Shown here piece after piece: positions 7,020 through 23,099 of a stretch of DNA of 64,000 nt; position 1 is the first letter of the stretch; each line of letters opens with the position of its first letter. A program made the translations under genes and the position numbers. The notes beneath the pieces were generated by a model. That model ran no database searches. It was not told where the DNA came from and saw only the letters and a program-made list of their open reading frames with translations. The stretch comes from an uncultured Dokdonia sp. GTDB lineage: Bacteria; Bacteroidota; Bacteroidia; Flavobacteriales; Flavobacteriaceae. The stretch lies in assembly GCF_947492535.1 (NCBI RefSeq), contig NZ_CANLNH010000009.1:140626-204625 (forward strand). Reading direction: 5' to 3'.

Positions 7020-9243
7020 CAGACTGTTGTTTTAAAAGGGTTTCATTGTAAAAAGATAAAATCACTTGATTTGTATAGGATGCATTTTCTCCAGAAACAA
7101 CACTTTGTTCAGTATGTAAAAATTCTTTGAGTATAAATCGTCCTCGCTTTTTTACTGTTGACAACAACATTTGTACACTCGTTATATTTTTTAAATTGAT
7201 TAGTAGTTCATTATCACTATCCTTCAAAAGCACGTATTGGGGTAATTGTTTTTCTTTTATAAATAGTTCCAAATTCTCTTGAAAATTACCCATATTTTTT
7301 AGGGAATTTTGAAGTGCCTCTATATCAGACTTTAAAATATTCCAAGTTTTTGAAGATAAAATAACTCCTTTATAGACAACTCTAGGCAAGAACGGAAAAT
7401 CCCCTTCATAAGGTCCCCAGTGAAAACCGATCCCTCCTCGTTTATTTTGGCTCTGCATATTTGCCAAAAATTGATAAATAGGCAATGCACCACTAGAATA
7501 ATTATGAGCATTACTTAAGTGTGGAATCACTTCTTTATTATATTTTTTTGAACGTAAAATAACACGATCTCTTTTTACAGATACCATTAAGTCATCAATG
7601 GGAAGTTGCGCCTCTGTATTTAATACAGATTTAGCTAAATATGGAATTTCATACTCTCTCAAAGCAGGTCGCATTAATATATTTCCTACTCTTGATTCTG
7701 GAAGGTGTACTATTTCTGCTAGGATTCTATTTGAATTACATCGTTTTTCTACAGCGATTATTTCATTTACATATTCATGTATTTCTGGATCACTATGACA
7801 GAACCTACCTAATAAATTTGCTGCACTAGAGCCTCCTACATTTGCCATTACAATCTGTTCTTCACCATCAATATTTACTACTTCTACCATTGTCGAAATG
7901 GTATCTGGCAAGTCTTTCCAGTTTTCTTCAAATTTGTCAAAATCTGAATCTATAAGCGTAACTATTTGTTTATTCTCACGTAAGCAGTCTACTAATTTTT
8001 CATGTAAAATAGTATGGATGGTATTCCACTTTACTTCTCTCGTCGTGATTTTTGCAGACCCACCTGGCAGCATAATATCATCTACTAACGCACTTACATC
8101 ACCAGAATCTTTATTTTGAAGAAAGCCTACTCCTAGTTCTACATCTAATGCCTGAGATAAAGGAACTTCTCTATCTTCATAACGTTCATAAAATGCTTTT
8201 CTAAATTGTGATAATAATGTTTCACTAGGTGCTTGTGAGATCTTATTAAGCAAACGCATTACACGTCTTACTTTGTAAAGCAATTGCTTATTTAAACTAT
8301 TTTTTTGGGGATGTAGCGACATATCTGTCTGAAACAGATACTTGAGTTCAAAACCCGTATTTAATGCTTCTAAAGAAGTACTTATATCTATATAGTCTGA
8401 AGACGGGTTTCCTATTTTCGTGTCAAGTTTTTTAATTTTTAGCTGTGTTTCTTCTAACTTTTCTACAAATCGAGCAGTGCCTTCAAGTTTTTTTAGAACA
8501 GGAATAATTTGATCTGTAAACTCTGGACCAGAAACAGACGGTTCTAGTTCACTCACTAGCAACTGACTATTTACCAATTCTTCTATAAACCCTGAAGCCA
8601 CTTCTAATGAAATCTCATCATCTACCAAGCATTCTGATACTACCGCTAGTGTTGCTCCTGAAGCTGCTGTACTTAGTACTCTTTGTAAATATTCTGAATG
8701 TTGTACTCCAACAATATGATGCATCCTACGACTATTTTCATAGTGATACTCTACATAACGTAATTGTGATCCTGCTTTATATATACTTGTATTAGGATAA
8801 AAACGGAGTTGTTTTCGTATCGTTTCATCTTTTACAATATCTTGAGACAGTGCAACGAGATAATTCATATCAAGCCTCGTATGTCTTTTATTTTCTGTAG
8901 ATTTTTTTAGAACAATGTCTGTCTCTTCTCCAAAAACGCCTACGGTAGTCCCTGCAAATAATCCAAAAGGGGTACATCTAGATGACATTCTACTTATGTA
9001 TTTAAGTATCGAATATGTCATACGTTCACTATCACTAGGATTTGCTTGACCCTCTAACCATTTTTCAAAAGCGGTATATAAAGATGGGGAAGCTAAAAAA
9101 AGTGCTTCTTTAATATGTGCTTCTTGACATATTTTTTTGAGCGTATCTTGTGTTAAGATAGAATCTTTTGTAAGCTCAAAAAAGAAGTTAAGCGGGAGTA
9201 AAGGTGATCTTAAAACGTATTTGGGAAAATGGGTGTATTGCAT
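7012..9243 (-). CDS. Lantibiotic dehydratase, N-terminal (glutamylation) part; split LanB
   Basis: RSPLLPLNFFFEL, SRMSSRCTPFGLFAGTTVG, NYSSGALPIYQFLANMQ motifs. Confidence 0.93.
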   Translation of the reverse strand: MQYTHFPKYVLRSPLLPLNFFFELTKDSILTQDTLKKICQEAHIKEALFLASPSLYTAFEKWLEGQANPSDSERMTYSILKYISRMSSRCTPFGLFAGTTVGVFGEETDIVLKKSTENKRHTRLDMNYLVALSQDIVKDETIRKQLRFYPNTSIYKAGSQLRYVEYHYENSRRMHHIVGVQHSEYLQRVLSTAASGATLAVVSECLVDDEISLEVASGFIEELVNSQLLVSELEPSVSGPEFTDQIIPVLKKLEGTARFVEKLEETQLKIKKLDTKIGNPSSDYIDISTSLEALNTGFELKYLFQTDMSLHPQKNSLNKQLLYKVRRVMRLLNKISQAPSETLLSQFRKAFYERYEDREVPLSQALDVELGVGFLQNKDSGDVSALVDDIMLPGGSAKITTREVKWNTIHTILHEKLVDCLRENKQIVTLIDSDFDKFEENWKDLPDTISTMVEVVNIDGEEQIVMANVGGSSAANLLGRFCHSDPEIHEYVNEIIAVEKRCNSNRILAEIVHLPESRVGNILMRPALREYEIPYLAKSVLNTEAQLPIDDLMVSVKRDRVILRSKKYNKEVIPHLSNAHNYSSGALPIYQFLANMQSQNKRGGIGFHWGPYEGDFPFLPRVVYKGVILSSKTWNILKSDIEALQNSLKNMGNFQENLELFIKEKQLPQYVLLKDSDNELLINLKNITSVQMLLSTVKKRGRFILKEFLHTEQSVVSGENASYTNQVILSFYNETLLKQQSDA

Positions 9244-9632: not shown

Positions 9633-9656
9633 AATTCTATGTTGTTACTTAAAATA

Positions 9657-9686
9657 CCTACTCTAGTTAAGGTTTTCGGCTTTCCC
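9657..9686 (-). promoter_or_regulatory. Conserved 5' leader element (GAAAACCTTAAnTAGAGTAGG family), precursor 1
   Basis: Same element upstream of precursors 1, 2, 5, 6 and 7. Confidence 0.7.
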
Positions 9687-9766
9687 TTGTCAAAAATTGG
9701 TTGTTAACAATGCAATAATTCTGACACTAAAGTAGCCTAGACAAAAAGATGAAAAAAGAAACCTAT

Positions 9767-9835: not shown

Positions 9836-10006
9836 CTAATGAAAATGCGAATATGTACAACCCATTTCTCTAGACAATTCTGGATCTGTATGTGGATCTG
9901 GATCTGTAGGATCACTACTTCCTCCTTGTATTTTCAATAGTTCGCTTGTATTAATCTTTGCTATCGTTAACTTTTTAAGATTTAGTGTTTTAAATTCTTT
10001 TTTCAT
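9836..10006 (-). CDS. GG-leader peptide 2 (56 aa) paired with regulator A: MKKEFKTLNLKKLTIAKINTSELLKIQGGSSDPTDPDPHTDPELSREMGCTYSHFH
   Basis: Hand-translated; not in ORF track; directly downstream of regulator A. Confidence 0.85.
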   Translation of the reverse strand: MKKEFKTLNLKKLTIAKINTSELLKIQGGSSDPTDPDPHTDPELSREMGCTYSHFH

Positions 10007-10028
10007 GATACTAATTGTTTTATCTACT

Positions 10029-10048
10029 CCTACTCTTTTAAGGTTTTT
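10029..10048 (-). promoter_or_regulatory. Conserved 5' leader element, peptide 2
   Basis: cctactcttttaaggttttt, matches the element of precursors 1, 5, 6 and 7. Confidence 0.6.
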
Positions 10049-10114
10049 CAGAATCCTCCTATATAATTGAATTTGAAATATACCTTAAGTGATTTTCCGT
10101 TCACAATGAAACAA

Positions 10115-10136
10115 CCGTATTTTGTCTAAAATACGG
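10115..10136. promoter_or_regulatory. Putative operator, type A, between regulator A and peptide 2
   Basis: CCGTATTTT-GTCT-AAAATACGG, perfect 9-bp arms; centre is the reverse complement of that in site 9767..9788. Confidence 0.7.
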
Positions 10137-10151
10137 TAGGATTTTCATCTC

Positions 10152-11873
10152 TTAAGCCGCAGTATTCTTTAGTATCTCGATATTCTTAATATAGTACGAA
10201 GGATTAATCCCTGTTTTAGATTTAAAGTGCTTTACAAATGATTTATCACTTTTATATCCTACTTCTAAAGCTATAGACGCTATAGAAAAAGATCGAAATC
10301 TTTTATCATTTTTTAATTTTGTCAATGCATATTCTATTCTTAAATCATTTATATATCCATTAAAGTTTTTACCCTTATGAGTATTTATTATTTTGGACAA
10401 ATACGTGGCATTGGTTTTTGTTTTTTTGGCTATCGTTCTAAGACTACAATCAGGTTTTAAAAAGTATTCTTGTTTTTCCAGTTTAGAAAGTCCTTTCAAA
10501 ACAGCATCTACTTTATCATCATCAATGGCAATCTCTGCTACTATTTTCTTAGTCTTCTGTTCTTCTTTTTGTTGTTTATGAGATTCAAGTTGATCTATCT
10601 GACTGATTAAATTATTGAATAACATTTTATTTTTTTTCTGCTTTCGCCAGAAAGAATACCCTACTATTAACAGTAAAACAAAAGTGATAAGCAATCCTAT
10701 TTGTGCATACCTCTTATTTGCTTTCTCTAAAGCTATTCGTTCATTAGCTGCATTTTCTTCTTTTTCAAAAACTCTATTCCTGGTTTTACCTTCATTTTTT
10801 TTATATGCATTTGTAAGCTCCATATATATTTTATGGTATACCCAAGCTTGTTTATCTTCTCCTAATTCTCTGTGGCATTCCATAAGTAAGTAATACGTTT
10901 GAATAATAGGAAGTTTATTGGTGTCTTCATCTTCTAAATTAGATACTATTATATTCAGGTAATCAATAGCATCATGATATAACCCTTTATCATATTTAAG
11001 CTTCGCCAAAAAGTAATGTACTCTTACTTTCTGATGGAAGTCATTATCTAACGCATACTCGCTAATTATTTTTTTTGCTTTATCTAAAAAAAACTGCGAT
11101 TCTTCTCTGCTATCTTTATTATAATAAACAATACCTTTCTTTATGTATAAATCTGCAAGTCCTTTTTTATAGTTTAAAGAATCTGCGATTTTTATTCCTT
11201 TATCTGCAAGTGATATAACTTTATCGTATTTCTCTGCTCCTAGATAAACATCATTAATCGTCGTAAGCATCTGTACATAATTTTTAGTATTCCTGTCTGA
11301 AGATTGTTCTAACGCTAGCAATAGTTTATCAGACATATCAAGTGCTTTTTCTAACTGATCATCCATTTGTGATATAAGACTGATATAACTCGAGGTTGCT
11401 ATGTTTTCTAATGTTACATATGCATGTTTTTTAGCAATATCTATTGCCGTATTGTAAAGATCTACTGCTTGTTCATTGTTACCATCAAGCATAAATGATT
11501 TTGCCTTAATAATAGAAATAACACAGGTTCTTCTTTTTTCATTATTTTTCTTTGCTAAATCTAGCGCCTCGTCTAGATATTGATGCGCCTTTTCATAATT
11601 TTCTTCTTTAGAAAAACGTCTTCCTAATTCCTGGTATATCTCGGCAGTATTATTTTCTTTAGCACGTTTTAAAACCACTTTTTCATAAAATGCGGCTTTA
11701 TCTAATTTTGCGCTTTTAATTAGTTGCACAAGCTCTTGTGAAGATTTATTAACTAAACTATCAGTAATCTGAACAGATGCTTCTTGGGCATAGAAAAAAT
11801 GTGTAGAACATAAAATAATTAGTACTGTAATCGTATTGATTATAAGAGGTATTTTCTTTGAGAAAAAAGTCAT
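10152..11873 (-). CDS. Regulator A: membrane-spanning TPR / AraC-type HTH transcriptional regulator
   Basis: Signal peptide, TPR-like repeats, single TM (IGLLITFVLLLIVGYSFW), C-terminal AraC HTH (GYKSDKSFVKHFKSKTGINPSYY). Confidence 0.9.
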   Translation of the reverse strand: MTFFSKKIPLIINTITVLIILCSTHFFYAQEASVQITDSLVNKSSQELVQLIKSAKLDKAAFYEKVVLKRAKENNTAEIYQELGRRFSKEENYEKAHQYLDEALDLAKKNNEKRRTCVISIIKAKSFMLDGNNEQAVDLYNTAIDIAKKHAYVTLENIATSSYISLISQMDDQLEKALDMSDKLLLALEQSSDRNTKNYVQMLTTINDVYLGAEKYDKVISLADKGIKIADSLNYKKGLADLYIKKGIVYYNKDSREESQFFLDKAKKIISEYALDNDFHQKVRVHYFLAKLKYDKGLYHDAIDYLNIIVSNLEDEDTNKLPIIQTYYLLMECHRELGEDKQAWVYHKIYMELTNAYKKNEGKTRNRVFEKEENAANERIALEKANKRYAQIGLLITFVLLLIVGYSFWRKQKKNKMLFNNLISQIDQLESHKQQKEEQKTKKIVAEIAIDDDKVDAVLKGLSKLEKQEYFLKPDCSLRTIAKKTKTNATYLSKIINTHKGKNFNGYINDLRIEYALTKLKNDKRFRSFSIASIALEVGYKSDKSFVKHFKSKTGINPSYYIKNIEILKNTAA

Positions 11874-11981
11874 TAATGTATTGAATAAGAATGTGTTTCC
11901 AAATGTAACTATTCTTACAACTAACTACTTAGTTAAATTATTATAATTAACATCTATTTATAATAAGAATATGTTATATAC

Positions 11982-11995
11982 GCTTTCGCGAAAGC
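11982..11995. repeat. GCTTTCGCGAAAGC palindrome (representative intergenic copy)
   Basis: One of 13 intact copies in the window. Confidence 0.95.
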
Positions 11996-12179
11996 GTATA
12001 AAGAAGTGATTTTTCTATAATAGTATGTAAAAAAGCCCATCTTCTTCCTTTCAGAGAAAATGGACTTCATCAATTAATAATCAATAAAACTCAATTATTA
12101 ATTACAAGCTACTAACCAATAGATTAATTCACTAATCTTCTAGAAGTGCTAATAATAGATAGGCCTTCAGTTAAATCTA

Positions 12180-12386
12180 TTAACAAGCTATCCAAACATT
12201 ATTTGCACAAACTAGATTTACGGGTCCCGCTAGACATGGTGGGCCCCAATAAGGACCTCCACAACAGAAAGCTCCTTCTTCTGGGCATTCTTGATCTATA
12301 CAAAACCCAAAACCACCATTAATGTTTTTTTGATCTTCTTTCTTTAAAGATTCAATTCCTTTAATATTTAAAATGTTTTTTAACAT
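12180..12386 (-). CDS. GG-leader Cys-rich peptide 3 (68 aa)
   Basis: MLKNILNIKGIESLKKEDQKNINGG leader; six Cys in core. Confidence 0.85.
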   Translation of the reverse strand: MLKNILNIKGIESLKKEDQKNINGGFGFCIDQECPEEGAFCCGGPYWGPPCLAGPVNLVCANNVWIAC

Positions 12387-12412
12387 AATATAAAATTTAA
12401 AATGAATGTATC

Positions 12413-12436
12413 CTTGATCATTTAATGACGCTCAAG
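12413..12436 (-). promoter_or_regulatory. Second-class 5' leader hairpin, peptide 3
   Basis: CTTGATCATTTAATGACGCTCAAG (+ strand); matches 20404..20427. Confidence 0.65.
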
Positions 12437-12479
12437 GTTTGCGTCACACTCAAGCTTGAATATTTTAAATATCATATAA

Positions 12480-12767
12480 TTAGTTTCCATAAATTGTAAC
12501 AGGATCTAAGATGACATTGCTTTCACACATATCTAAGTAAAAGTCTGCCAATGACAAGTATTCCATCACTGTCAATGTTCCTCCAGAAGCAACATCGTCA
12601 TAATTTGCTTGATCAAACGCCCATTGAACGCAACTTTCTGGGTGATCTTCTGCTAGTAATTGGTAATAAAACTCTTCACAAGTTTCTAATTCTGTAGAAG
12701 AAGCATTTGCAGTAAACCCTGCGAGTAATAGCAATAAAAAGCCTATTGTATTTTTAAGTTTTCTCAT
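12480..12767 (-). CDS. Small secreted Cys-containing protein (95 aa)
   Basis: N-terminal signal peptide MRKLKNTIGFLLLLLAGFTANA; upstream of and co-oriented with peptide 3. Confidence 0.75.
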   Translation of the reverse strand: MRKLKNTIGFLLLLLAGFTANASSTELETCEEFYYQLLAEDHPESCVQWAFDQANYDDVASGGTLTVMEYLSLADFYLDMCESNVILDPVTIYGN

Positions 12768-12853
12768 AATATATTTTTAACATTAATTTTTTATGTTGCA
12801 ACACATTACAAATATGAACTGTATTTTTAGCACTTGCAATTTGAGCATACTGG

Positions 12854-12887
12854 TATTCATGAAAAACGAATTCGTTTTTCATGAATA
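12854..12887. promoter_or_regulatory. 34-bp perfect palindrome; putative double type B operator in the divergent intergenic region
   Basis: TATTCATGAAAAACG-AATT-CGTTTTTCATGAATA; two inverted ATTCATGAAAA copies with CATG centres 22 bp apart. Confidence 0.8.
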
Positions 12888-13078
12888 TTAATAATATGTT
12901 CTAATGATTAGCATTAGATGTACATCGTATCCTTAGTGTGTACGACGAGACAAATTATCTAGTGAACTTTGATCGGGATTTACATTTCGCAAAAAGATAT
13001 CGTGTAGGTTTAATAAATTGATAAAGGATACTTACATTTATTATCTCAAAACCACCTAATGACCCTTATTACTTTGTT

Positions 13079-14776
13079 ATGAAGTTATTAACTCACCTTC
13101 TTATATGTATTTTCTTCTTAAGTAGTATCAATACTTTATTAAGTCAAAATAAAGCAAAATCTATTGATACTTTAAAAAATAAAACGGCGCAAGAACTTTT
13201 TTACATCTCTGCAAGAAGCCCTGACATTTCTATTCTTGAAAAAGCTATTAAAAAAGCCAAAGAAGAAAATAATATGTCAGTCCTTATCAACAGTTATAAC
13301 TATATGGCTTTACGATTAAAAGATGAAAATAAACTATTGTATAGTGACAGTATTATTGCTTTAAAAGATACATATAGCAATAGTTTCTATCCTGCAAGTG
13401 CTTACTATAATAAAGGTTTTTATTTTTTTAATAACGGCAACTTTATTAAAGCAACAGATAATTTCATCAAAGCCAATGAATATGCAAATAGATATTATAA
13501 CAAAGACATGATCGTTCGCTCAAAGCAAAGTTTAGGATTACTAAAAAAAGAAACAGGGGATTATAAGCAAGCACTTACGCTTTATAAAGAAAATTTTGAA
13601 TTTGCTACTTCTGGAAATACTAATACATTATCAAACACAGATTATCTTGAAATTATTCTTTCTATAGCCTCTACTTACAACGAACTAAACAATTATGATT
13701 CAATATCTTACTATAACGACTTTGGAATTAAAGAATCTTTACGTTTAAAAGACACCACTAAATACAATGACTTTATTTTAAACGAGGCTAAAGCGCTTTT
13801 TAATAAAGAAAAATATGATCGCTCTTTAAATAATTTAATTAAGATATTACCCTATTATAAATCTAGTAATGATCATGCAAATTTATCTTTTACCTATTAC
13901 TATTTAGCTAAAAACTATTTGAAATTAAAAGAAGACAAAATAGCGATTCAATTTCTAAAAAAAGTAGACTCACTTTATATAGAAAGCAATGATGCTAGAC
14001 CAAAAACAAAAGTGCAAGAAAGCTATGCGTTATTAACCTCTTATTATAGAGATCAGAAACAGTTAGAAGATTTAATTATATACCAAGATAAAACCATTGC
14101 TTTAACCAATAAGTTGCATGCTAATGAACTATATACTAATAAAAAAATTGTAAATGATTACGACATCCCATTAATATTGGCTAACACCAAAAAAGCTATG
14201 GACAAGATTAAAGCAAAAGAAAAGCGAACAAAATTGCTTTCTTATTTCTTGGTCGTTATTATTATAGCTATTCTTATCATTTTGTTTTATTTAAATACAC
14301 GAAGAAAAGTGTACAAAAAGATATTTGAGGAGTTAATCAGTAAAAAGGATGATACTTTAAATCTAAAATCAATTAAAAAAGAAAAACCTTCTACAAAAAC
14401 AACATTAAATATTCCAGATACTGTTGTTTCAAAAATCTTAACTAGTTTAGAAAAGTTTGAGAAAGACAAGGAATATCTTAATTCAAAAATATCTATTGCT
14501 GGTTTAGCTAAATCTATTGGAACGAATCCTAATTACCTCTCTAAAACTGTCAATCATTTTAAGGAAATGTCTTTTTCTCAGTATATCAATACGCTTCGAA
14601 TAACATATGCAGTAAGCTCTTTAAAAAATGATTCTATCTATAGAAAATACACCTTAAAGGCGATTGCTGCTGAGTTTGGATTTAACAATACAGAGTCATT
14701 TTCTAAAGCATTTTATAAAGAAACAGGTATCAAACCTTCTTTTTTTATGAGAAGTATTGAAAAGACAAACACATAA
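13079..14776 (+). CDS. Regulator B: membrane-spanning TPR / AraC-type HTH regulator
   Basis: Signal peptide, TPR-like region, TM (LLSYFLVVIIIAILIILFYL), C-terminal HTH (GFNNTESFSKAFYKETGIKPSFF). Confidence 0.9.
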   Translation: MKLLTHLLICIFFLSSINTLLSQNKAKSIDTLKNKTAQELFYISARSPDISILEKAIKKAKEENNMSVLINSYNYMALRLKDENKLLYSDSIIALKDTYSNSFYPASAYYNKGFYFFNNGNFIKATDNFIKANEYANRYYNKDMIVRSKQSLGLLKKETGDYKQALTLYKENFEFATSGNTNTLSNTDYLEIILSIASTYNELNNYDSISYYNDFGIKESLRLKDTTKYNDFILNEAKALFNKEKYDRSLNNLIKILPYYKSSNDHANLSFTYYYLAKNYLKLKEDKIAIQFLKKVDSLYIESNDARPKTKVQESYALLTSYYRDQKQLEDLIIYQDKTIALTNKLHANELYTNKKIVNDYDIPLILANTKKAMDKIKAKEKRTKLLSYFLVVIIIAILIILFYLNTRRKVYKKIFEELISKKDDTLNLKSIKKEKPSTKTTLNIPDTVVSKILTSLEKFEKDKEYLNSKISIAGLAKSIGTNPNYLSKTVNHFKEMSFSQYINTLRITYAVSSLKNDSIYRKYTLKAIAAEFGFNNTESFSKAFYKETGIKPSFFMRSIEKTNT

Positions 14777-14801
14777 AAAACAGTGTTTTATGAATTAAAA
14801 T

Positions 14802-14823
14802 TACCAATATTCATGAAAATCGG
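14802..14823. promoter_or_regulatory. Putative operator, type B, between regulator B and peptide 4
   Basis: ACCAATATT-CATG-AAAATCGGT; shares ATTCATGAAAA with 12854..12887. Confidence 0.65.
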
Positions 14824-14891
14824 TATATACTTCTAAAATAAGAGTTCAAGTCTTCTTAGTTTTAACTCAATCAATTAATAAAACAATATTC

Positions 14892-15131
14892 ATGAAAAAG
14901 AAATTAGATCTAAACAAATTCAAAATTGCGAGTCTAACAACAATGAAAACATTAAAAGGAGGAACTGGTGATGAAACAGGAGGAATTGAAACAGAACCTA
15001 ACACACTACCTCCACAATGTTTAACAAATACACAACCCGATCCTGATTATAATTCTGACGGTCCTTTAACTCCTCCAACCTGTTTACAGACTTCTGCAGT
15101 ACAAGTAACTGCTTTTTGTAATCATGGGTAA
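14892..15131 (+). CDS. GG-leader peptide 4 (79 aa) paired with regulator B
   Basis: MKKKLDLNKFKIASLTTMKTLKGG leader; directly downstream of regulator B. Confidence 0.85.
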   Translation: MKKKLDLNKFKIASLTTMKTLKGGTGDETGGIETEPNTLPPQCLTNTQPDPDYNSDGPLTPPTCLQTSAVQVTAFCNHG

Positions 15132-15220
15132 TAATACATTGATGATCATGTTATTTAATAAATAACTAAAAAGGGTGAATATGTTATCTAACATATATAT
15201 TCTTTTTTGCTTTATATCTT

Positions 15221-15265
15221 TATACGCTTTCGCGAACCTGCCTCGCCGGCAGGCAGGAGCGTATA
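15221..15265. repeat. TACGCTTTCGCGAAAGCGTA palindrome interrupted by a CCTGCC..GGCAGG palindrome
   Basis: tacgctttcgcgaa | cctgcctcgccggcaggcagg | agcgtata. Confidence 0.85.
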
Positions 15266-15270
15266 TTAAA

Positions 15271-16485
15271 TTACCCAATCATTAAGCATTGATTCCAATC
15301 TGTTTTTTCTGGATTTAAATACGATAGAATAGCAAGTCCTATACCTGCAATACCTTCCAAAAGACTGTTTTCTTTTTCGTAGGTAGGTGTATCTCCACCT
15401 CTCCATTTCTTATATCCCGCAGATCCATCTTTATGATGGTCTATTGTCAACCCATAATCTATCCAATAATCGGCAGCTTCTTTAAAAATTGGAGTCCCTA
15501 TTTCCTTATACATAAAATCAAAAATATGCATCACACCAAAAGCGCCATGGCATAATCCTCCATCTACAATTCGGGTTTCTTCTATATCTCTACGCGTTGC
15601 AGCATGTTCTAAAAGTTGTATTGAGGTTTGCTTTACATCTTCATTTTGCATCACTTTTGCGGCTTGCCAAAGCGAAACTGCAACCCCCAAATCGCCATAA
15701 CACCATGCGAGTCTACTACTTTCAGTTTCTTCATTATTATTTGTAATCCAGTCCGGAAAATAAGAGGTGGTTACCTGTTCTCTTTTACGACTCATTAAAT
15801 GATGTATTGACTGTTCTAAAAGAGGTAGTGCTTGTTTAGAAAAAACAGTGTGCTTTGAAAGTCTAGCTAAAAAATTAATAATACTAGATAATCCATGTGA
15901 AAGACTTAGGTTACACCCTTTAAGCCCTTCTTCTCTTATAAGAATTGATTCCCAATAGATGCCATACTCACCTTTTTGAGCTGTATTATCTAGCTTAGCA
16001 ATCATCTCTAACAACATCTTTTCGTACTTTGCTTTGAGCTCTTCAGAGGTTGTATTTTCATACCTCTTTAAAAAATAGTAGCCTATTCCTATGAGGCCAT
16101 GTAGAAAGTCATAAAAATTATCTTTATCATTGAGATTTGCAACATGATTTAAATAATCATCTAACACTCCTAGAAGACCATCTGTATCTACTTCTATAAA
16201 TTCTAACTCATTAAGAAGTTCAATAGTCCATGCTGCTCCCGCAATTCCTCCACAAAACGTATGAAAATTGTATCCTTCATTAATGCTACCCACTATAGAT
16301 GCTATAATTTCACTTCCAACATCTTCACTTATTTCATTAGGGTTATAGGCATTGTAATAAAAGTGATATAATGCAAGTCCTGAGCTACCTGAAAGCACTC
16401 CTACATCAGTAGTGTCTAGCTCTCCATTTGCTATAAGCTCTTTATTTATTTCTTCTAATTTATCTTTTAATTTTTGCTCACGCAT
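15271..16485 (-). CDS. LanC-like lanthionine cyclase
   Basis: GVLSGSSGLALYHFYY, LAWCYGDLGVAVSLW (CYG), GLCHGAFGVMHIF (CHG), LLEGIAGIGLAIL. Confidence 0.93.
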   Translation of the reverse strand: MREQKLKDKLEEINKELIANGELDTTDVGVLSGSSGLALYHFYYNAYNPNEISEDVGSEIIASIVGSINEGYNFHTFCGGIAGAAWTIELLNELEFIEVDTDGLLGVLDDYLNHVANLNDKDNFYDFLHGLIGIGYYFLKRYENTTSEELKAKYEKMLLEMIAKLDNTAQKGEYGIYWESILIREEGLKGCNLSLSHGLSSIINFLARLSKHTVFSKQALPLLEQSIHHLMSRKREQVTTSYFPDWITNNNEETESSRLAWCYGDLGVAVSLWQAAKVMQNEDVKQTSIQLLEHAATRRDIEETRIVDGGLCHGAFGVMHIFDFMYKEIGTPIFKEAADYWIDYGLTIDHHKDGSAGYKKWRGGDTPTYEKENSLLEGIAGIGLAILSYLNPEKTDWNQCLMIG

Positions 16486-16518
16486 ACTGTACTAATTTTT
16501 AATGAAATATACACATAA

Positions 16519-16549
16519 AAAAGCCATCTTACGATGTAAGACAGCTTTT
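16519..16549 (-). terminator. Hairpin between precursor 5 and lanC (terminator or attenuator)
   Basis: AAAAGC-CA-TCTTAC...GTAAGA-CA-GCTTTT. Confidence 0.65.
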
Positions 16550-16579
16550 AAAATATACAATGAATGTATAATTTCTATA

Positions 16580-16735
16580 CTAGAAGCACTGCATTCCTGG
16601 AGGTGGGATACTAATTAAAGTTCCTTCAGCGCTTCCTGGTCCGCAACCACAAGTTCCTTGTCCTTCAATTTTGTTTAATTCTAAACTACTAATTACTTCT
16701 TTGTTAAGCGATAATTCTTTCAATGATTTTTTCAT
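16580..16735 (-). CDS. Lanthipeptide precursor 5 (51 aa) with atypical GQG junction: MKKSLKELSLNKEVISSLELNKIEGQGTCGCGPGSAEGTLISIPPPGMQCF
   Basis: Hand-translated; not in ORF track; leader nearly identical to precursors 1, 6 and 7. Confidence 0.9.
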   Translation of the reverse strand: MKKSLKELSLNKEVISSLELNKIEGQGTCGCGPGSAEGTLISIPPPGMQCF

Positions 16736-16762
16736 GATAATTCTGTATTAGTTAATAAAGAG

Positions 16763-16794
16763 CCTACTCTATGTATAGGTTTTCGGCGTGTCCC
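16763..16794 (-). promoter_or_regulatory. Conserved 5' leader element, precursor 5
   Basis: cctactctatgtataggttttcggcgtgtccc. Confidence 0.7.
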
Positions 16795-16875
16795 TAAAAT
16801 CAATAAATAATTAAAATTTATTTTTCGATTCTTTATAAAAATACACTGTAAATCAACGTCTTACAACTTAACACA

Positions 16876-16897
16876 CCTCATATTAAACAAAATAAGG
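16876..16897. promoter_or_regulatory. Putative operator, type C, upstream of precursor 5
   Basis: CCTCATATT-AAAC-AAAATAAGG, inside CACCT...AGGTG. Confidence 0.65.
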
Positions 16898-16996
16898 TGC
16901 TTAAAATCAATTATTTACAAAACACAACTTTAAAAACCTTAACTATAATTAGAACAACCTAGTATTTTGGTTTTTTTACGGAAAAATTTACAACAT

Positions 16997-17027
16997 AAAA
17001 AAGCTATCTTTTTACAGATAGCTTTTT
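16997..17027 (-). terminator. Hairpin terminator downstream of precursor 6
   Basis: AAAAAAGCTATCTTTTTACAGATAGCTTTTT. Confidence 0.75.
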
Positions 17028-17085
17028 ATAATGTATTAGGCCTCTAAACGAATATACATTATATTATAATTAGATATATTTTATT

Positions 17086-17235
17086 CTAGTAGCACTGTGC
17101 TCCTCTTGGTGGGCAGGTATTTAAAGGACCATCTGTAGGACAACAATGTGTTGCACCACCTCCATCAATTTTATTTAATTCAAGATTACTGATAACTTCC
17201 TTGTTAAGTGTTAATGCTTTCAATGACTTTTTCAT
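17086..17235 (-). CDS. Lanthipeptide precursor 6 (49 aa): MKKSLKALTLNKEVISNLELNKIDGGGATHCCPTDGPLNTCPPRGAQCY
   Basis: Hand-translated; not in ORF track. Confidence 0.9.
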   Translation of the reverse strand: MKKSLKALTLNKEVISNLELNKIDGGGATHCCPTDGPLNTCPPRGAQCY

Positions 17236-17257
17236 GATTATTCTAGTTTAATAAAGA

Positions 17258-17288
17258 CCTACTCTATTTAAAGGTTTTCGGTTTCCCC
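17258..17288 (-). promoter_or_regulatory. Conserved 5' leader element, precursor 6
   Basis: cctactctatttaaaggttttcggtttcccc. Confidence 0.7.
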
Positions 17289-17367
17289 TTATATTATAGT
17301 TCATATTCTGACAAACTAAATACGATACTTGTTAACGCAATTTTGTATGGATGTATCATTCATAATA

Positions 17368-17397
17368 AAGGACTATCACAGGTAAGTGATAGTCCTT
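17368..17397 (-). terminator. Hairpin terminator downstream of precursor 7
   Basis: AAGGACTATCACAGGTAAGTGATAGTCCTT. Confidence 0.75.
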
Positions 17398-17433
17398 CTC
17401 ATTATATATTATAATAGTATATAGTTCTATTTT

Positions 17434-17583
17434 CTAGTAGCAATATACTCCTGGAGGTGGGCAACTGTTTAAAGCGCCACCAGTAGGACAGCAATGTGTT
17501 ACACCTCCACCTTCAACTTTATCTAATTCAAGATTACTGATAACTTCTTTGTTAAGTGTTAATTCTTTCAATGACTTTTTCAT
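17434..17583 (-). CDS. Lanthipeptide precursor 7 (49 aa): MKKSLKELTLNKEVISNLELDKVEGGGVTHCCPTGGALNSCPPPGVYCY
   Basis: Hand-translated; not in ORF track. Confidence 0.9.
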   Translation of the reverse strand: MKKSLKELTLNKEVISNLELDKVEGGGVTHCCPTGGALNSCPPPGVYCY

Positions 17584-17605
17584 GATTATTCTGGTTTAAT
17601 AAAGA

Positions 17606-17635
17606 CCTACTCTATTTAAGGTTTTCGGCGTTCCC
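17606..17635 (-). promoter_or_regulatory. Conserved 5' leader element, precursor 7
   Basis: cctactctatttaaggttttcggcgttccc. Confidence 0.7.
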
Positions 17636-17715
17636 TTATAATTAAACACATAAATATTGTGTATTCAATCAGGAATCAAATTAGTCAACTATAGAGAGTT
17701 AAAAAAGTACTGTTG

Positions 17716-17737
17716 CCTTATATTGAACAAAATAGGG
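17716..17737. promoter_or_regulatory. Putative operator, type C, upstream of precursor 7
   Basis: CCTTATATT-GAAC-AAAATAGGG. Confidence 0.65.
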
Positions 17738-17740
17738 CAA

Positions 17741-17771
17741 AAAAAACGCTATCCTCAATGGATAGCGTTTT
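17741..17771 (-). terminator. Hairpin terminator downstream of peptide 8
   Basis: AAAAAACGCTATCCTCAATGGATAGCGTTTT. Confidence 0.8.
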
Positions 17772-17791
17772 CATGAATCTTTACATGATTT

Positions 17792-17968
17792 TTATGGTAA
17801 ATCATTTGTGGTGCAATAAAGATCTGAACAGTTATTGCTATGTTTATACCAATCAGTACCATCTGTAGGAATACAATCTCCTCCATTAATAATATCCATT
17901 CCTCTTGTTTCTATTCTAGCAATTGTAAGTTTATTAAGGTTAATACCTTTCTTTACTTGTTTTTTCAT
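17792..17968 (-). CDS. GG-leader peptide 8 (58 aa) paired with regulator C: MKKQVKKGINLNKLTIARIETRGMDIINGGDCIPTDGTDWYKHSNNCSDLYCTTNDLP
   Basis: Hand-translated; not in ORF track; directly downstream of regulator C. Confidence 0.85.
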   Translation of the reverse strand: MKKQVKKGINLNKLTIARIETRGMDIINGGDCIPTDGTDWYKHSNNCSDLYCTTNDLP

Positions 17969-18082
17969 ATGAGTGTGTTTTATAAAAATTAATGTTAGCT
18001 AATATGTTTGAAAATTATAACATATCTATTTTTAGCGTTCCTTAAATGTAATTGCAATCTCTATAGAAACATAATTCACAAT

Positions 18083-18104
18083 CCCTAAATTGTTTAAAAT
18101 AGGG
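18083..18104. promoter_or_regulatory. Putative operator, type C, between regulator C and peptide 8
   Basis: CCCTAAATT-GTTT-AAAATAGGG; reverse complement CCCTATTTT-AAAC-AATTTAGGG matches the sites of precursors 5 and 7. Confidence 0.65.
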
Positions 18105-18142
18105 CTCTATAATTAAGTAAAAAAAACAATAACATATTGATT

Positions 18143-19876
18143 TTAAATCTCTTGTATTTTTTTTATATAATATGACGGATTGATTCCTGTCTTAGATTTA
18201 AAATGCTTAGCAAATGAATAATCACTTTTATATCCTAATTCTGTAGCTATAGATTTAATAGAAAAAGATCTGAATTTCTTATCATTTTTTAATCGATTAA
18301 CCGCATAATCAATACGCAAGTTATTTATATAATCATTGTAACTAAGTCCTTTGTGGGTATTTATAATTTTAGATAGATAGGTAGCATTTGTCTTTACTTT
18401 CTTAGCCATAGATCGTAAACTACATTCTGTATTAAGAAAAAACTCCTGTTGTTCTAAACGTTTAAGCCCCTTAAGTACAGCTCTCACTTTTTCATCATCA
18501 ATAATTACTTCCCGAGACTTCTCTTTTGGTTTTAAGGATTCTTTAGAAGACTTTTCCAATTGATCAACCTTCTTAAGCAGTTTATCAAAAGATTGCTGAC
18601 TTGTACGTTGTTTTTTCTTGTACACGTATAAAATAAGAACACAAATTCCAGAGACAGCAATAAGGAGGCATAAAAAATAGATAGCATTCCTTTTTTGAGC
18701 TGCTACTTCTTCGCCTAATATCCCTGTATCATTGTTATAAATTTTATTTACAACCTTGTCTCTATTTTTCTGATATTTTTCATTTAGTTTACTAAATTCA
18801 CTATACCAATACAAAGATTCTTTATGATCGCCAAGACCTTCATGAGAGGTTGCCATTAATTTATAGGCATGAATAAGTCGTGGTCTATGATTTATAGACT
18901 CATCATCTCTTTTTACATCTATAATCTGCTGTAATTTATCAATTGCATTTTTGTATTCTTTTTTTTCTATGTAACAACTCGCCAGAAAATAATTAATATT
19001 AATCATAAAGGTTTTATTCTTTATGTCACTTTCTTTAAGAATATTATCTGCAATCTTCAAATATTGTAATGCTTCCGTATAATCCTGTTTATAAAAATAA
19101 ACGGTCCCTTTTTTTGTATATAAATCAATCAGGCCTGCCTTATAATCTAAAACATTACTCATAGCGAGTCCTTGATTGACATACGTTAAAACAGTGTCAT
19201 ATTGTTGTACATCTGATTTATTTTTAGATTGTTGTATATCTAGATGTACTTCTGCAACTATGGTAAGTAAGTTTACATGAGCTCGTTCATTATGATACTT
19301 TGTTTCAGAGACAATAGCAAGTCCTTGATTACATACCTCGAGCGCCTTATCTAACTGCCTCATTCTTCTTCTAATAATAGCAATATTGGGGTGTATAATA
19401 ACTATCCTGTGATTATCTTGACCTTGTTTTTGAGTAATTTCTAATGCTTTATAATAAGCATCAAGTGCTTCTTGATTACGCCATGCTGTCAATTCTAAAC
19501 TTCCTAACGACGTATATAAATCAATGAGTTTTTCTTTATTCTTTATAAACTGAGCATATAAAATAGCTTCTTTGATATAGGATACAGATCGTTTATTATC
19601 TCCTTGTTTTGAAAATGTGCGACTCAGTTTTTCATATAGTACAACTCTATCGAGATCGCTTTGAAACCTTCGCAGTAATTCTTTTTCATAAGGAATAGCT
19701 TTTTCTTGAGACAACTCTATGATATTAGAAAAAAGCTGATCATTGGTTTCCTGCCTTAAATCGACGCGTATATTTTCTTGTTGTGCAAATGATTTGTTGT
19801 GTATACTTAAAAAGAAAATAATAAGTATAGGAATACTTGCTAGATATATATTATATCGTGAGGGGGAATACATCAT
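18143..19876 (-). CDS. Regulator C: membrane-spanning TPR / AraC-type HTH regulator
   Basis: Closest paralogue of regulator A; TM (IYFLCLLIAVSGICVLILYVY); C-terminal HTH (GYKSDYSFAKHFKSKTGINPSYY). Confidence 0.9.
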   Translation of the reverse strand: MMYSPSRYNIYLASIPILIIFFLSIHNKSFAQQENIRVDLRQETNDQLFSNIIELSQEKAIPYEKELLRRFQSDLDRVVLYEKLSRTFSKQGDNKRSVSYIKEAILYAQFIKNKEKLIDLYTSLGSLELTAWRNQEALDAYYKALEITQKQGQDNHRIVIIHPNIAIIRRRMRQLDKALEVCNQGLAIVSETKYHNERAHVNLLTIVAEVHLDIQQSKNKSDVQQYDTVLTYVNQGLAMSNVLDYKAGLIDLYTKKGTVYFYKQDYTEALQYLKIADNILKESDIKNKTFMININYFLASCYIEKKEYKNAIDKLQQIIDVKRDDESINHRPRLIHAYKLMATSHEGLGDHKESLYWYSEFSKLNEKYQKNRDKVVNKIYNNDTGILGEEVAAQKRNAIYFLCLLIAVSGICVLILYVYKKKQRTSQQSFDKLLKKVDQLEKSSKESLKPKEKSREVIIDDEKVRAVLKGLKRLEQQEFFLNTECSLRSMAKKVKTNATYLSKIINTHKGLSYNDYINNLRIDYAVNRLKNDKKFRSFSIKSIATELGYKSDYSFAKHFKSKTGINPSYYIKKIQEI

Positions 19877-20188
19877 ATATTTTTAAGTCGGTTGAGAGAC
19901 CTAAAAATAAGAATTCATTTTAAGATATACCCCTGAAATTTAGGGATTAACTTATTTTATTTATGGTGTTAAATACGCTTTCGCGAAAGCGCATAACAAA
20001 AGCCCATTGCAATACATCAATCTATCAAATGACGTGAAAAGTAAATTATCTCAAAAAGCTCATGAATATATGAATACTCATATCCATGTATCTATAGTCC
20101 TCAAGGTATAAAACCTTCCTAGAATAAAACTAGAATAAAAAAGGTCATTTATGAATAAATGACCTCCCTATTTCTATATATCATCTAG

Positions 20189-20374
20189 TTATGCCTGACA
20201 GCAGATGCAATGACCTTGAACTGGATGCGGTACATAACCGTCCATACATTCTCCTCCTGGATTTAAATATGGATTTATACATTCAAACTTTTGAATAGGT
20301 CCAAAACCTCCTTTGATTTGTTCTTTCTCTGACTTGTTTAATTCTTTTCCTAAATTCGAAATTGATTTTAACAT
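20189..20374 (-). CDS. GG-leader Cys-containing peptide 9 (61 aa)
   Basis: MLKSISNLGKELNKSEKEQIKGG leader, same class as peptide 3. Confidence 0.85.
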   Translation of the reverse strand: MLKSISNLGKELNKSEKEQIKGGFGPIQKFECINPYLNPGGECMDGYVPHPVQGHCICCQA

Positions 20375-20403
20375 AATTGCTTGTTTTTTGTATTATTTGA
20401 ATT

Positions 20404-20427
20404 CTTGATCATTTAAAGACACTCAAG
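20404..20427 (-). promoter_or_regulatory. Second-class 5' leader hairpin, peptide 9
   Basis: CTTGATCATTTAAAGACACTCAAG (+ strand), near-identical to 12413..12436. Confidence 0.65.
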
Positions 20428-20619
20428 TATATGTCTACTTTATCTTAAAGAATATGATGTATTGTGTTAACCATATATTTTTATAAAGAAGCTATGTAAT
20501 AGATTATTAAAAAATTATATACACGCTAGTATGATTATGTGACGGTATTCTATTTATTAATTGGCCACCAATACTCCAAATATTAGGGAATCTTATAGAA
20601 AAGACAAGGAAAGCTAATC

Positions 20620-20656
20620 GGAATTCTAAGAATTAAAAGTTGGAATTCTAAGAATT
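20620..20656. promoter_or_regulatory. Two tandem type D operator candidates, 22 bp apart, in the divergent region of peptide 9 and regulator D
   Basis: GGAATTCTAAGAATT at 20620 and again at 20642. Confidence 0.7.
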
Positions 20657-20817
20657 CAAAAAAGAAAAAAAAAGAACTAACAACCTTAATACAAGTGATT
20701 TAAAATCATTTATTTAACATCTTCTTCAAATAACCTATATATAACAAGTATACTTATGAAAATACTAACAGGCTCTTTTAAATAAATTATCTATTTTTCA
20801 AAAAAATATAATAATTA

Positions 20818-22548
20818 ATGATGTATTCATTGACGCAAAGATCGCTTTACATTTATATAATTTTTATAGTACTTATTTCGCAAAATATCTTTGCTCAAGA
20901 AAAAGATTTTATAATTCCTGATTCTCTTAAGGGAAAAGACTTCAATTATTTAGACAAGCAATTCAGAACGCATTATTTAGACACTGTTACATCATTAGTA
21001 TACCTAAACACTATTTATAAAAAAGGATTTATAGAAAATAATATAGCAAATCAATCTTTTGCTTTATCTCAATTAGCCTACTATACTACAAACAGAAATG
21101 ACAAATTAGATCTTATTAAAAAATCTATTGCTAAAGGAGAAGAAGAAGCGCTTTACATGTCATTATCTGCGCGTTTGATGCTTGGTATAAATTACCACAG
21201 TCATTTTGAATATGAGGAAGCACTACAAGAATATTTACTATTGTATAATAACTCAAAGAAAGCTAATAGTGAAGTTTATGAGTTTAATGCATTAAATCGT
21301 ATTGCGCAATTAAAAAGAGATATAGGAAATTATAAAGAAGCTTTAGAAACTTATAAAAAGTGTTTACATTACGAGAAGTTAAAGATACCCATAGACTCCA
21401 TTTCTCTAACACGCACTTATGTAGACATGGCTGAATCTATGCGATACCTCAAAAAACATGATTCTGCCTCTTATTACTATAGATATATTAAAGACCATGG
21501 TTATAAAAAAAATAACTTCTACTTAAATATAGCCACTATTAACCAAGGAATTAATTTATATGAAATTGGCAAGCTTAAAGAAAGTGGAGTACTCTTACAT
21601 CAAGGCCTTCAAAACATTAATTTAAATAACAAAAGTAGTCATAGATATCACATACTATCGCTACTATACCTAGGAAAGATTAATCAATCTCTAAATAAAA
21701 ACCTAGATAAAACGAAACGTTATTTCCAAACTATTGATTCTTTATATACAGCTACAAATATTATCATTCCAGAAACTAGAGAAGTGTATGAATTTTTTAT
21801 TAAAGACTATATAAAGCAAAAAGATGCAAATGCACAGATCAATACTATAAATAAACTAATGAAATTTGATAGCATTGCTGCTGAAAGAAAGATAAATACC
21901 CTTACCAAATTTCATTCAGAATATGACACACTTCAATTAACAAAAAGTAAAGAAGAAATCATTAAGAACTTAGAAAAACAGAAAACACAACTTAGCAAAA
22001 AAGTCATTTACTTAAGTGTATTCATTCTACTTTTTATCATATTATTTTTAATACAGTATAAAAAACATAAAACGTATAAAGATAGATTTAATAAAATTAT
22101 TTCTGAATTAGATACACATAAAGAGAAAAACACACCTTCATATACGTCTTTAACTACTGAAGAAAAATTACTCGATGTCATTGATGAAACCACCATTAAT
22201 ACAATCGTAGATAAACTTACTGAATTTGAAGAAAAAGAAGGTTTCTTACAGAAAGATATCACGCTATCTATTCTTGCAAAAAAATGTACTACAAATACGA
22301 AATACTTACCTAAAATTATAAATGCCTATAAAAATAAATCCTTCGTAAACTATATCAATAGTCTTAGAGTAGATTATATCTTAAAAGAATTAAAGGAAAA
22401 TACCACGCTACAAAAATATACCATCAAAACCATTAGTGAAGAAGCTGGTTTTAACACGCCAGAATCATTTGCTAGAGCCTTTAAAAACAAAACAGGGATT
22501 AGACCTTCATATTACATTAGAAACCTCAAAAAGAACGTAGAAAATTAG
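20818..22548 (+). CDS. Regulator D: membrane-spanning TPR / AraC-type HTH regulator
   Basis: Signal peptide, TPR-like region, TM (VIYLSVFILLFIILFLIQY), C-terminal HTH (GFNTPESFARAFKNKTGIRPSYY). Confidence 0.9.
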   Translation: MMYSLTQRSLYIYIIFIVLISQNIFAQEKDFIIPDSLKGKDFNYLDKQFRTHYLDTVTSLVYLNTIYKKGFIENNIANQSFALSQLAYYTTNRNDKLDLIKKSIAKGEEEALYMSLSARLMLGINYHSHFEYEEALQEYLLLYNNSKKANSEVYEFNALNRIAQLKRDIGNYKEALETYKKCLHYEKLKIPIDSISLTRTYVDMAESMRYLKKHDSASYYYRYIKDHGYKKNNFYLNIATINQGINLYEIGKLKESGVLLHQGLQNINLNNKSSHRYHILSLLYLGKINQSLNKNLDKTKRYFQTIDSLYTATNIIIPETREVYEFFIKDYIKQKDANAQINTINKLMKFDSIAAERKINTLTKFHSEYDTLQLTKSKEEIIKNLEKQKTQLSKKVIYLSVFILLFIILFLIQYKKHKTYKDRFNKIISELDTHKEKNTPSYTSLTTEEKLLDVIDETTINTIVDKLTEFEEKEGFLQKDITLSILAKKCTTNTKYLPKIINAYKNKSFVNYINSLRVDYILKELKENTTLQKYTIKTISEEAGFNTPESFARAFKNKTGIRPSYYIRNLKKNVEN

Positions 22549-22550
22549 TC

Positions 22551-22565
22551 GTAATTCTAAGAATT
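22551..22565. promoter_or_regulatory. Type D operator candidate between regulator D and peptide 10
   Basis: GTAATTCTAAGAATT, within GTCGTAATTCTAAGAATTTAGAC. Confidence 0.65.
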
Positions 22566-22647
22566 TAGACTATTTCACAATATATATTTACTTCTCAGAT
22601 AGTAATTACACTTAGATTTAGCACACATATTTAAACAATAAAACCTT

Positions 22648-22899
22648 ATGAAAAAATCAAAAAAAGTACTTGAATTAAACAAACTTGTAATTTCAAAATT
22701 AAATGATCTTCATTCTATAAATGGAGGGTCACAAAATACAGACGAAGAGACTACATGTACTGGTCAAGGTGCATCAGATATATCTCCTTTATGTCCAAGA
22801 GTAAGTAGACCTAATGGGGTTTGCGACACTGAAAATGACAACACCTGTAATGGTAGACCAGGTGGTACGGGTACAGAAATTGTGAGTTTAGGTTGCTAA
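22648..22899 (+). CDS. GG-leader peptide 10 (83 aa) paired with regulator D
   Basis: MKKSKKVLELNKLVISKLNDLHSINGG leader; directly downstream of regulator D. Confidence 0.85.
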   Translation: MKKSKKVLELNKLVISKLNDLHSINGGSQNTDEETTCTGQGASDISPLCPRVSRPNGVCDTENDNTCNGRPGGTGTEIVSLGC

Positions 22900-23099
22900 T
22901 ATTCCAATAATCGTATTCAGTTAACAACTTATAATAACTACAAGCGCCTTCCGTTGTATAGCTCGGAAGGTGTTTTTATTTTAGAGCACTTTTTGTGAGG
23001 GTATTTGTTATGCTTTCGCGAAAGCGTATACCAGAAAAATAAATAAATAAATCCTGTTTTACAGGGGTAAAAAGTTACCCGTCTCCACGGGCAATTATT

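Follow-up and report, generated by a model that had tools for sequence, protein, structure and literature searches.

We describe four regulator-peptide gene pairs in a 64,000-nucleotide stretch of the genome of an uncultured Dokdonia sp. (NCBI RefSeq assembly GCF_947492535.1, contig NZ_CANLNH010000009.1, positions 140,626 to 204,625 of the forward strand; hereafter the window), together with their counterparts across the Bacteroidota. In each pair, a gene for a membrane regulator (A to D) with a tetratricopeptide repeat (TPR) region and an AraC-type helix-turn-helix (HTH) domain is followed by a gene for a small peptide with a Gly-Gly leader. These pairs represent a real, widespread, and reciprocal regulator-peptide module of marine and soil Bacteroidota, and we judge it probable that each of them forms one peptide-signalling circuit, in which an exported and often LanB-modified peptide would signal to the neighbouring regulator. 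This reading draws on gene layout, domain content, membrane topology as judged by hydropathy, conservation, co-occurrence with C39 exporters, the correlation of leader motif and LanB, and a protease gene in a recurrent position. From these features we infer the export, modification, and binding of the peptides, the sign of regulation, the target genes, and the orthogonality of the four circuits.

10152..11873, minus strand: regulator A, 573 amino acids (aa); signal peptide, TPR, transmembrane (TM) segment 390-408, AraC-type HTH
13079..14776, plus strand: regulator B, 565 aa; same layout as regulator A, TM segment 386-404
18143..19876, minus strand: regulator C, 577 aa; same layout as regulator A, TM segment 398-416
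20818..22548, plus strand: regulator D, 576 aa; same layout as regulator A, TM segment 396-414
9836..10006, minus strand: peptide A, 56 aa; leader ...LNLKKLTIAKI...GG, mature part SSDPTDPDPHTDPEL...; 145 bp after regulator A
14892..15131, plus strand: peptide B, 79 aa; mature part TGDETGGIETEPNTLPPQC...; 115 bp after regulator B
17792..17968, minus strand: peptide C, 58 aa; mature part DCIPTDGTDWYKHSNNCSDLYCTTNDLP; 174 bp after regulator C
22648..22899, plus strand: peptide D, 83 aa; 99 bp after regulator D

An earlier note on this DNA had proposed that the four regulators share a signal peptide, a TPR region, one TM helix, and an AraC-type HTH domain. The open reading frames (ORFs) at the coordinates given above, Pfam searches, hydropathy, and an AlphaFold2 model of regulator C all agree with this description. 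TPR_12 and HTH_18/HTH_AraC matches were found in all four proteins (the TPR_12 match of regulator D lies under the curated cut-off); with HTH_18 scores of 46-52 bits against a cut-off of 33.6, they possess the two-HTH DNA-binding domain of the AraC/XylS type. Each begins with a hydrophobic segment at the N-terminus and has, between TPR and HTH, a single internal TM segment; the latter recurs, again singly, in 149 of the 150 paired regulators counted. No kinase domain was detected by Pfam in regulators A to D, which show the TPR-TM-AraC architecture instead. The model of regulator C, built with 46 sequences (mean predicted local distance difference test score (pLDDT) 86, predicted template modelling score 0.62), places TPR helices at residues 45-347, a long helix passing through the TM segment at 351-445, and the HTH domain at 463-576. 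The best structural matches of its TPR part are LGN-type peptide-binding TPR proteins; further down the match list stand Rap with its signal peptide (4gyo) and apo NprR (5dbk).

A Gly-Gly-leader peptide follows each of the four regulators, as the earlier note had stated, with gaps of 99-174 bp from regulator stop to peptide ATG instead of the 99-183 bp given there. Its description of the mature parts as unrelated is correct among A, B, C, and D; each mature part, however, is conserved across orthologous pairs. The A-type sequence SSDPTDPD..ADPEL is kept in D. pacifica and another Dokdonia, the C-type sequence GGDC[IL]PT is conserved across Dokdonia, Aquimarina, Lacinutrix, and others, and the B-type sequence TGDETG... 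is likewise retained among orthologous pairs, as are other types. With a median length of 27 aa and a median charge of -3, the mature parts of the pair peptides are short, acidic, and hydrophilic; in these properties they differ from typical membrane-active bacteriocins, a point that we count for a signalling role.

To quantify the pairing across the Bacteroidota, we counted leader-type ORFs starting 20-260 bp downstream of related regulators with enough sequence (n = 169). Such an ORF was present in 64 of them, compared with 1 of 169 on the antisense strand, 2 of 166 upstream, and 0.15 on average in shuffles; this survey, which had been suggested as a check of the pairing, thus turned out in its favour. 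Scoring the downstream ORFs with a leader profile gave the same picture as the ORF count. Among other long ORFs (n = 331), there were 22 leader matches, every one of which came from duplicate copies of regulators. All 26 of the closest relatives (regulators scoring above 500 bits) have a leader-type ORF downstream, and so do 85 of the 97 scorable regulators at loci from named genomes, mostly Aquimarina, Kordia, and Dokdonia. The relationship also holds in reverse, since 33 of 34 leader matches in 51 genomes adjoin such a regulator (adjacency being taken from coordinates), while no leader match was found in the 29 genomes whose regulators lack peptides. One leader match is located in D. pacifica (G152:C17:256016), a species whose strain DSM 25597 has pairs of the A-, B-, C-, and D-like types.

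On a tree of 172 regulators, the pairing label changes 16 times, versus 54 times in shuffles; pairing is therefore a property of clades, and some clades of the same architecture have no peptide. Where it occurs, adjacency has persisted in many genera although regulator identity is often below 25% and the neighbours change, and it is also kept where a pair stands isolated. Pairs are found away from lanthipeptide biosynthesis genes (L033, L034, and many Kordia loci), and one Kordia locus holds several pairs with one peptide per regulator. All eight regulators of the subfamily in the host genome of the window (4.86 Mb) have a Gly-Gly peptide downstream; those lying apart from LanB comprise two tandem pairs on contig 14, one pair on contig 9 at 60 kb, and one pair on contig 10. 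A ninth, more distant homologue (L031) has no peptide downstream. When this genome was searched with the leader only, the seven top matches were pair peptides, followed by the lanthipeptide (LanA) precursors of the window, a lone peptide, and the peptide of the eighth pair. The lone leader-type peptide (L314, C24:7539) has no regulator.

The distribution of C39 peptidase exporters follows that of the pairs: all 28 genomes with pairs contain them, as opposed to 14 of the 29 genomes whose regulators have no peptide (p=5e-6). The corresponding figures for LanB are 24/28 and 4/29, and LanB genes lie in the same cluster as the pair in 14 contexts. The pair-peptide leaders carry the sequence LxLxKx5L (143 of 150 peptides overall), the leader motif reported for a number of class I LanAs of Bacteroidota, many of which end in Gly-Gly (Walker et al., 2020; PMC7268733). 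This match to a LanB-substrate motif had been overlooked in the earlier note. The motif is present in 53 of 54 peptides of LanB-containing genomes and in none of the four peptides of LanB-less genomes (p=1e-5). Because the leaders match this motif, the signals are probably LanB-modified where LanB exists. Against the model for Bacteroidota class I lanthipeptide precursors (NF038153; cut-off 22 bits), the four pair peptides of the window score 11.1-21.7 bits; the window's own LanAs likewise remain below the cut-off with 17.8-20.6 bits.

In one set of genera, the gene after the peptide encodes an S8, S9, or S15 protease in 18 of 18 complete 20-kb contexts. The S8 enzymes are subtilases and the S9 enzymes prolyl oligopeptidases, while an S15 X-Pro dipeptidyl peptidase occupies this position in one sister-family genome. 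The gene orders are either LanB-N, LanB-C, regulator, peptide, protease or regulator, peptide, protease, LanB. That three protease families fill the same slot throughout indicates a proteolytic step acting on the peptide. Leader removal or maturation of lanthipeptides is a known function of subtilisin-like and prolyl-oligopeptidase enzymes (PMC10885120), so that a role in maturation is as likely as one in turnover. The neighbours of this cassette are, depending on the locus, grasp-with-spasm clusters (TIGR04192/TIGR04193), arrays of bacteriocin-like Gly-Gly genes, or lanthipeptides, and this exchangeability of the module between products argues for the peptide as a controller and not a product.

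Four genomes with pairs have no LanB (G081, G111, G146, and G157), and their peptides have neither LxLxKx5L nor Cys. Here the regulator, peptide, protease, and exporter genes form a set of their own. In three of the four genomes (G111, G157, and G081), regulator, peptide, S9 protease, C39 exporter, and HlyD are encoded together beside the mobile-element gene RteC (L282, L283, L285, L351, and L354). Integrases are found at the cassettes of G157 and G081; conjugation genes (TraG, TraM, a TraN-like DUF4138 protein, DUF5712, and a coupling protein) lie near the G111 cassette, and homologues of several of these near that of G157. We read the RteC-side cassettes as parts of integrative elements whose transfer they might control. 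Near the LanB-less cassettes, no ORF with such a Gly-Gly leader was recognised besides the pair peptide. A self-contained set of putative receptor, peptide, protease, and exporter with no other cargo constitutes the strongest genomic argument in favour of signalling.

We propose the following course of events. The peptide would be made with a leader bearing LxLxKx5L and, where LanB is present, would probably be dehydrated and perhaps ring-closed near a C-terminal Cys. The C39 transporter would cleave after Gly-Gly and export the peptide, which in one group of genera would then be trimmed or turned over by the serine protease whose gene directly follows that of the peptide. In the periplasm, the one-component membrane regulator encoded next to it would sense the peptide through its TPR domain, whereupon the cytoplasmic AraC-type domain would switch nearby genes; these might encode lanthipeptides, graspetides, or further Gly-Gly peptides, or serve functions of integrative and conjugative elements.

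A number of observations weigh against this proposal. Of 171 regulators of the same architecture, 102 have no peptide, which means that this fold can also respond to other inputs. Because paired regulators were used to seed the search profile, score correlates with pairing, a bias that affects the scores but leaves the controls for strand and position untouched. Phylogeny confounds the comparisons of C39 and LanB content, and the LanB-less pair genomes number only four; three of these have related-looking leaders, reducing the independent events to fewer than four. The protease slot is absent beside the Aquimarina and Kordia pairs, as it is beside the window's own four. In an AlphaFold2 read-through fusion of regulator C and peptide C, a weak test because the peptide was modelled unmodified and without alignment depth, the peptide reached a pLDDT of only 22-28 and did not dock. 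Across the whole set, finally, the partial correlation between mature part and TPR domain is 0.00 beyond joint inheritance. Among closer pairs only, the mature part follows the TPR domain (0.31) more closely than the HTH domain (0.15), and similar peptides occur in 70 of 78 cases at TPR distances below 0.4, with rapid decay beyond. The co-evolution that the earlier note had suggested testing is therefore seen as a local excess and not in the whole set; this local co-divergence would be compatible with a joint change of ligand and receptor, and is not proof of it.

Homologues without adjacent peptides, which that note had listed as evidence against its proposal, occur in some clades only, and about half of the tested genomes holding them lack C39. 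A functional partnership of peptide and regulator is strongly supported by its conservation, its occurrence outside loci for ribosomally synthesized and post-translationally modified peptides (RiPPs), its link to C39, and its reciprocity. The further claim that the exported peptide is the ligand of the TPR domain found support neither in the fusion model nor in the whole-set correlation, so that the interpretation given in the earlier note is supported in part.

The peptide could instead be a RiPP product, antimicrobial or with another effector function, with the regulator controlling the peptide gene and sensing, e.g., envelope damage or the peptide of a rival. The match of the leaders to those of LanAs and the frequent position of pairs inside RiPP clusters speak for this view. 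So does the composition of the mature parts: Cys occurs in 135 of 150, and the position four residues ahead of the last Cys is enriched in Ser/Thr (57/135), which recalls a lanthionine ring; a general enrichment of Ser/Thr-x2,3-Cys in the mature parts was not significant (87 versus 78 in shuffles). We nevertheless regard it as unlikely. Dedicated LanA, graspetide, or bacteriocin-like precursors are encoded by separate genes with other leaders in the same clusters, at the LanB-less pairs, three of which lie beside mobile-element genes, a tiny peptide free of Cys is the only local exporter cargo that was recognised, and there is one peptide per regulator even where a Kordia locus holds several pairs.

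Somewhat less probable still is a negative ligand that switches the regulator off and reports self or crowding, in the manner of the Phr peptides of Rap regulators. RapI-PhrI of ICEBs1 is a TPR receptor and peptide that control an integrative conjugative element, and the RteC-side pairs on conjugative elements recall this case; a linked protease could set the level of such an inhibitor. The pairs at antibiotic-type clusters, in contrast, look more like autoinduction, and peptide A and the lanthipeptide genes of Dokdonia share an RNA element (DUF805b, see below), which suggests co-expression with the product. That the pairs are just an ancient operon, in which the peptide serves biosynthesis or as exporter cargo and never contacts the regulator, seems very improbable to us: whole-set TPR co-variation no stronger than joint inheritance explains is what such an operon would give, yet adjacency has survived the deep divergence, the many genera, and the changes of neighbours and isolation described above.

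Known systems share parts of the proposed signalling circuit. Like the Gram-positive double-glycine pheromones (ComC/ComDE, BlpC/BlpRH), it combines a Gly-Gly-leader peptide, a C39 exporter, an adjacent regulator, and a frequent link to bacteriocin genes; those systems, however, use a histidine kinase and response regulator and another leader motif, whereas here we find a single protein with predicted periplasmic TPR, one TM segment, and AraC-type HTH, and LxLxKx5L leaders. The RRNPP proteins (Rap, NprR, PlcR, and Rgg) have the TPR superhelix in common with our regulators, as reflected by the structural matches, but are cytoplasmic proteins with an HTH or effector domain at the N-terminus and depend on import of the peptide, while the signal peptide and TM segment would put the TPR outside in our case and the AraC-type HTH is C-terminal. 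Nisin-type autoinduction (LanRK) resembles the pairs in that a probably LanB-modified peptide would control a lanthipeptide locus; here the receptor would be one-component and the signal peptide distinct from the lanthipeptide product, and LanB-less versions exist. Bacteroidota class I lanthipeptide precursors (NF038153; PMC7268733) share leader motif, Gly-Gly, and C39; the pair peptides differ by scoring below the cut-off of that model (all four of the window), by cores unlike the local LanAs, and by being each tied to a regulator. RapI-PhrI resembles the pairs in arrangement, as a TPR receptor and its peptide encoded by an integrative conjugative element; it differs in receptor topology, exporter, and element.

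In the open-licence papers searched, we found no description of the regulator-peptide pairing, nor did this literature yield a dedicated peptide-signalling system for Bacteroidota. A survey of Bacteroidales RiPPs mentions HTH and TPR genes in clusters and leaves them unpaired (PMC10352776), and a survey of graspetides leaves associated TPR proteins unexplained (PMC8939145). Most likely, the pairs form a peptide-signalling circuit whose type of receptor is absent from these papers. We also lean, with less assurance, towards a new Bacteroidota-wide class of peptide communication, in which one-component receptors with periplasmic TPR domains have their own exported peptides, LanB modifies the signal itself, and the module is plugged into lanthipeptide, graspetide, and bacteriocin-like clusters and conjugative elements. 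If this is true, Bacteroidota would possess a dedicated peptide-signalling system with many natural receptor-peptide pairs, including modified-peptide signals made by LanB; Gly-Gly peptides with lanthipeptide-like leaders would gain a partner and a role, silent RiPP clusters of Bacteroidota could be woken through this handle, and peptide control of conjugative elements would be suggested outside the Gram-positives.

By its gene content, the surrounding locus in the window is a lanthipeptide locus with split LanB, LanC, C39 exporter, HlyD, and four LanA-type precursors:

2606..3898, minus strand: HlyD-type adaptor of the exporter (domain match)
3911..6103, minus strand: C39 peptidase ABC exporter (domain match); expected Gly-Gly cleavage and export
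6132..7019, minus strand: split LanB, elimination domain (PF14028)
7012..9243, minus strand: split LanB, glutamylation domain (PF04738); no other LanB found in the host genome
9486..9632, minus strand: lanthipeptide-type precursor 1; leader LTLNKEVISNLEL, likewise LxLxKx5L
15271..16485, minus strand: LanC cyclase (domain match)
16580..16735, minus strand: lanthipeptide-type precursor 4
17086..17235, minus strand: lanthipeptide-type precursor 3
17434..17583, minus strand: lanthipeptide-type precursor 2
12180..12386, minus strand: second-type Gly-Gly peptide with bacteriocin-like leader, two genes upstream of and divergent from regulator B
20189..20374, minus strand: second-type Gly-Gly peptide with LGKELNKSEKEQIKGG leader, divergent from regulator D

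The second-type Gly-Gly peptides have LGKxLxxxEQxxIxGG-like leaders and are divergent from D-like and E-like regulators in Dokdonia. We considered such divergent bacteriocin-like genes as a general target of the regulators and rejected this idea, as they occur at only 6 of 65 pair loci, mostly in the D-like and E-like clades.

The lanthipeptide genes and peptide A are preceded by a conserved 35-nt element corresponding to the cis-regulatory RNA element DUF805b of Rfam (RF02914):

10027..10061, minus strand: DUF805b element upstream of peptide A (36.9 bits, cut-off 35.6)
9655..9689, minus strand: DUF805b element upstream of lanthipeptide precursor 1
17256..17291, minus strand: DUF805b element upstream of lanthipeptide precursor 3
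17604..17638, minus strand: DUF805b element upstream of lanthipeptide precursor 2
16761..16797, minus strand: weaker DUF805b-like element upstream of lanthipeptide precursor 4 (29.1 bits, below the cut-off)

We rejected this element as the specific binding site of the regulators because it is DUF805b, which is also present in many genomes whose regulators have no peptides. The copies in the window lie about 20-30 nt ahead of the start codons. In Dokdonia and Aquimarina, a near-fixed distance separates many strong copies from the RiPP or other Gly-Gly precursor that follows, and further copies stand likewise ahead of genes for secreted proteins; DUF805b may serve exported small proteins as a leader element.

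Among the regulators without peptides, a clade of one genus (L146, L148, L150, and L152) lies near a gene for a lipoprotein-like protein of 230-245 aa, divergent in several cases, which perhaps represents another input. Arrays of several tandem regulators from the same family (L093 and L094) have no adjacent peptides, and the HTH ends of these regulators are very similar. Beside one LanB-less pair (L088, 5508-7937), we noted a gene for an 809-aa aminotransferase-GNAT fusion resembling alpha-oxoamine synthases. A family of 47-nt repeats with the core CGCTTTCGCGAAAGCG lies between genes and is represented in the window at 11960-12006, 19955-20001, and 22990-23036.

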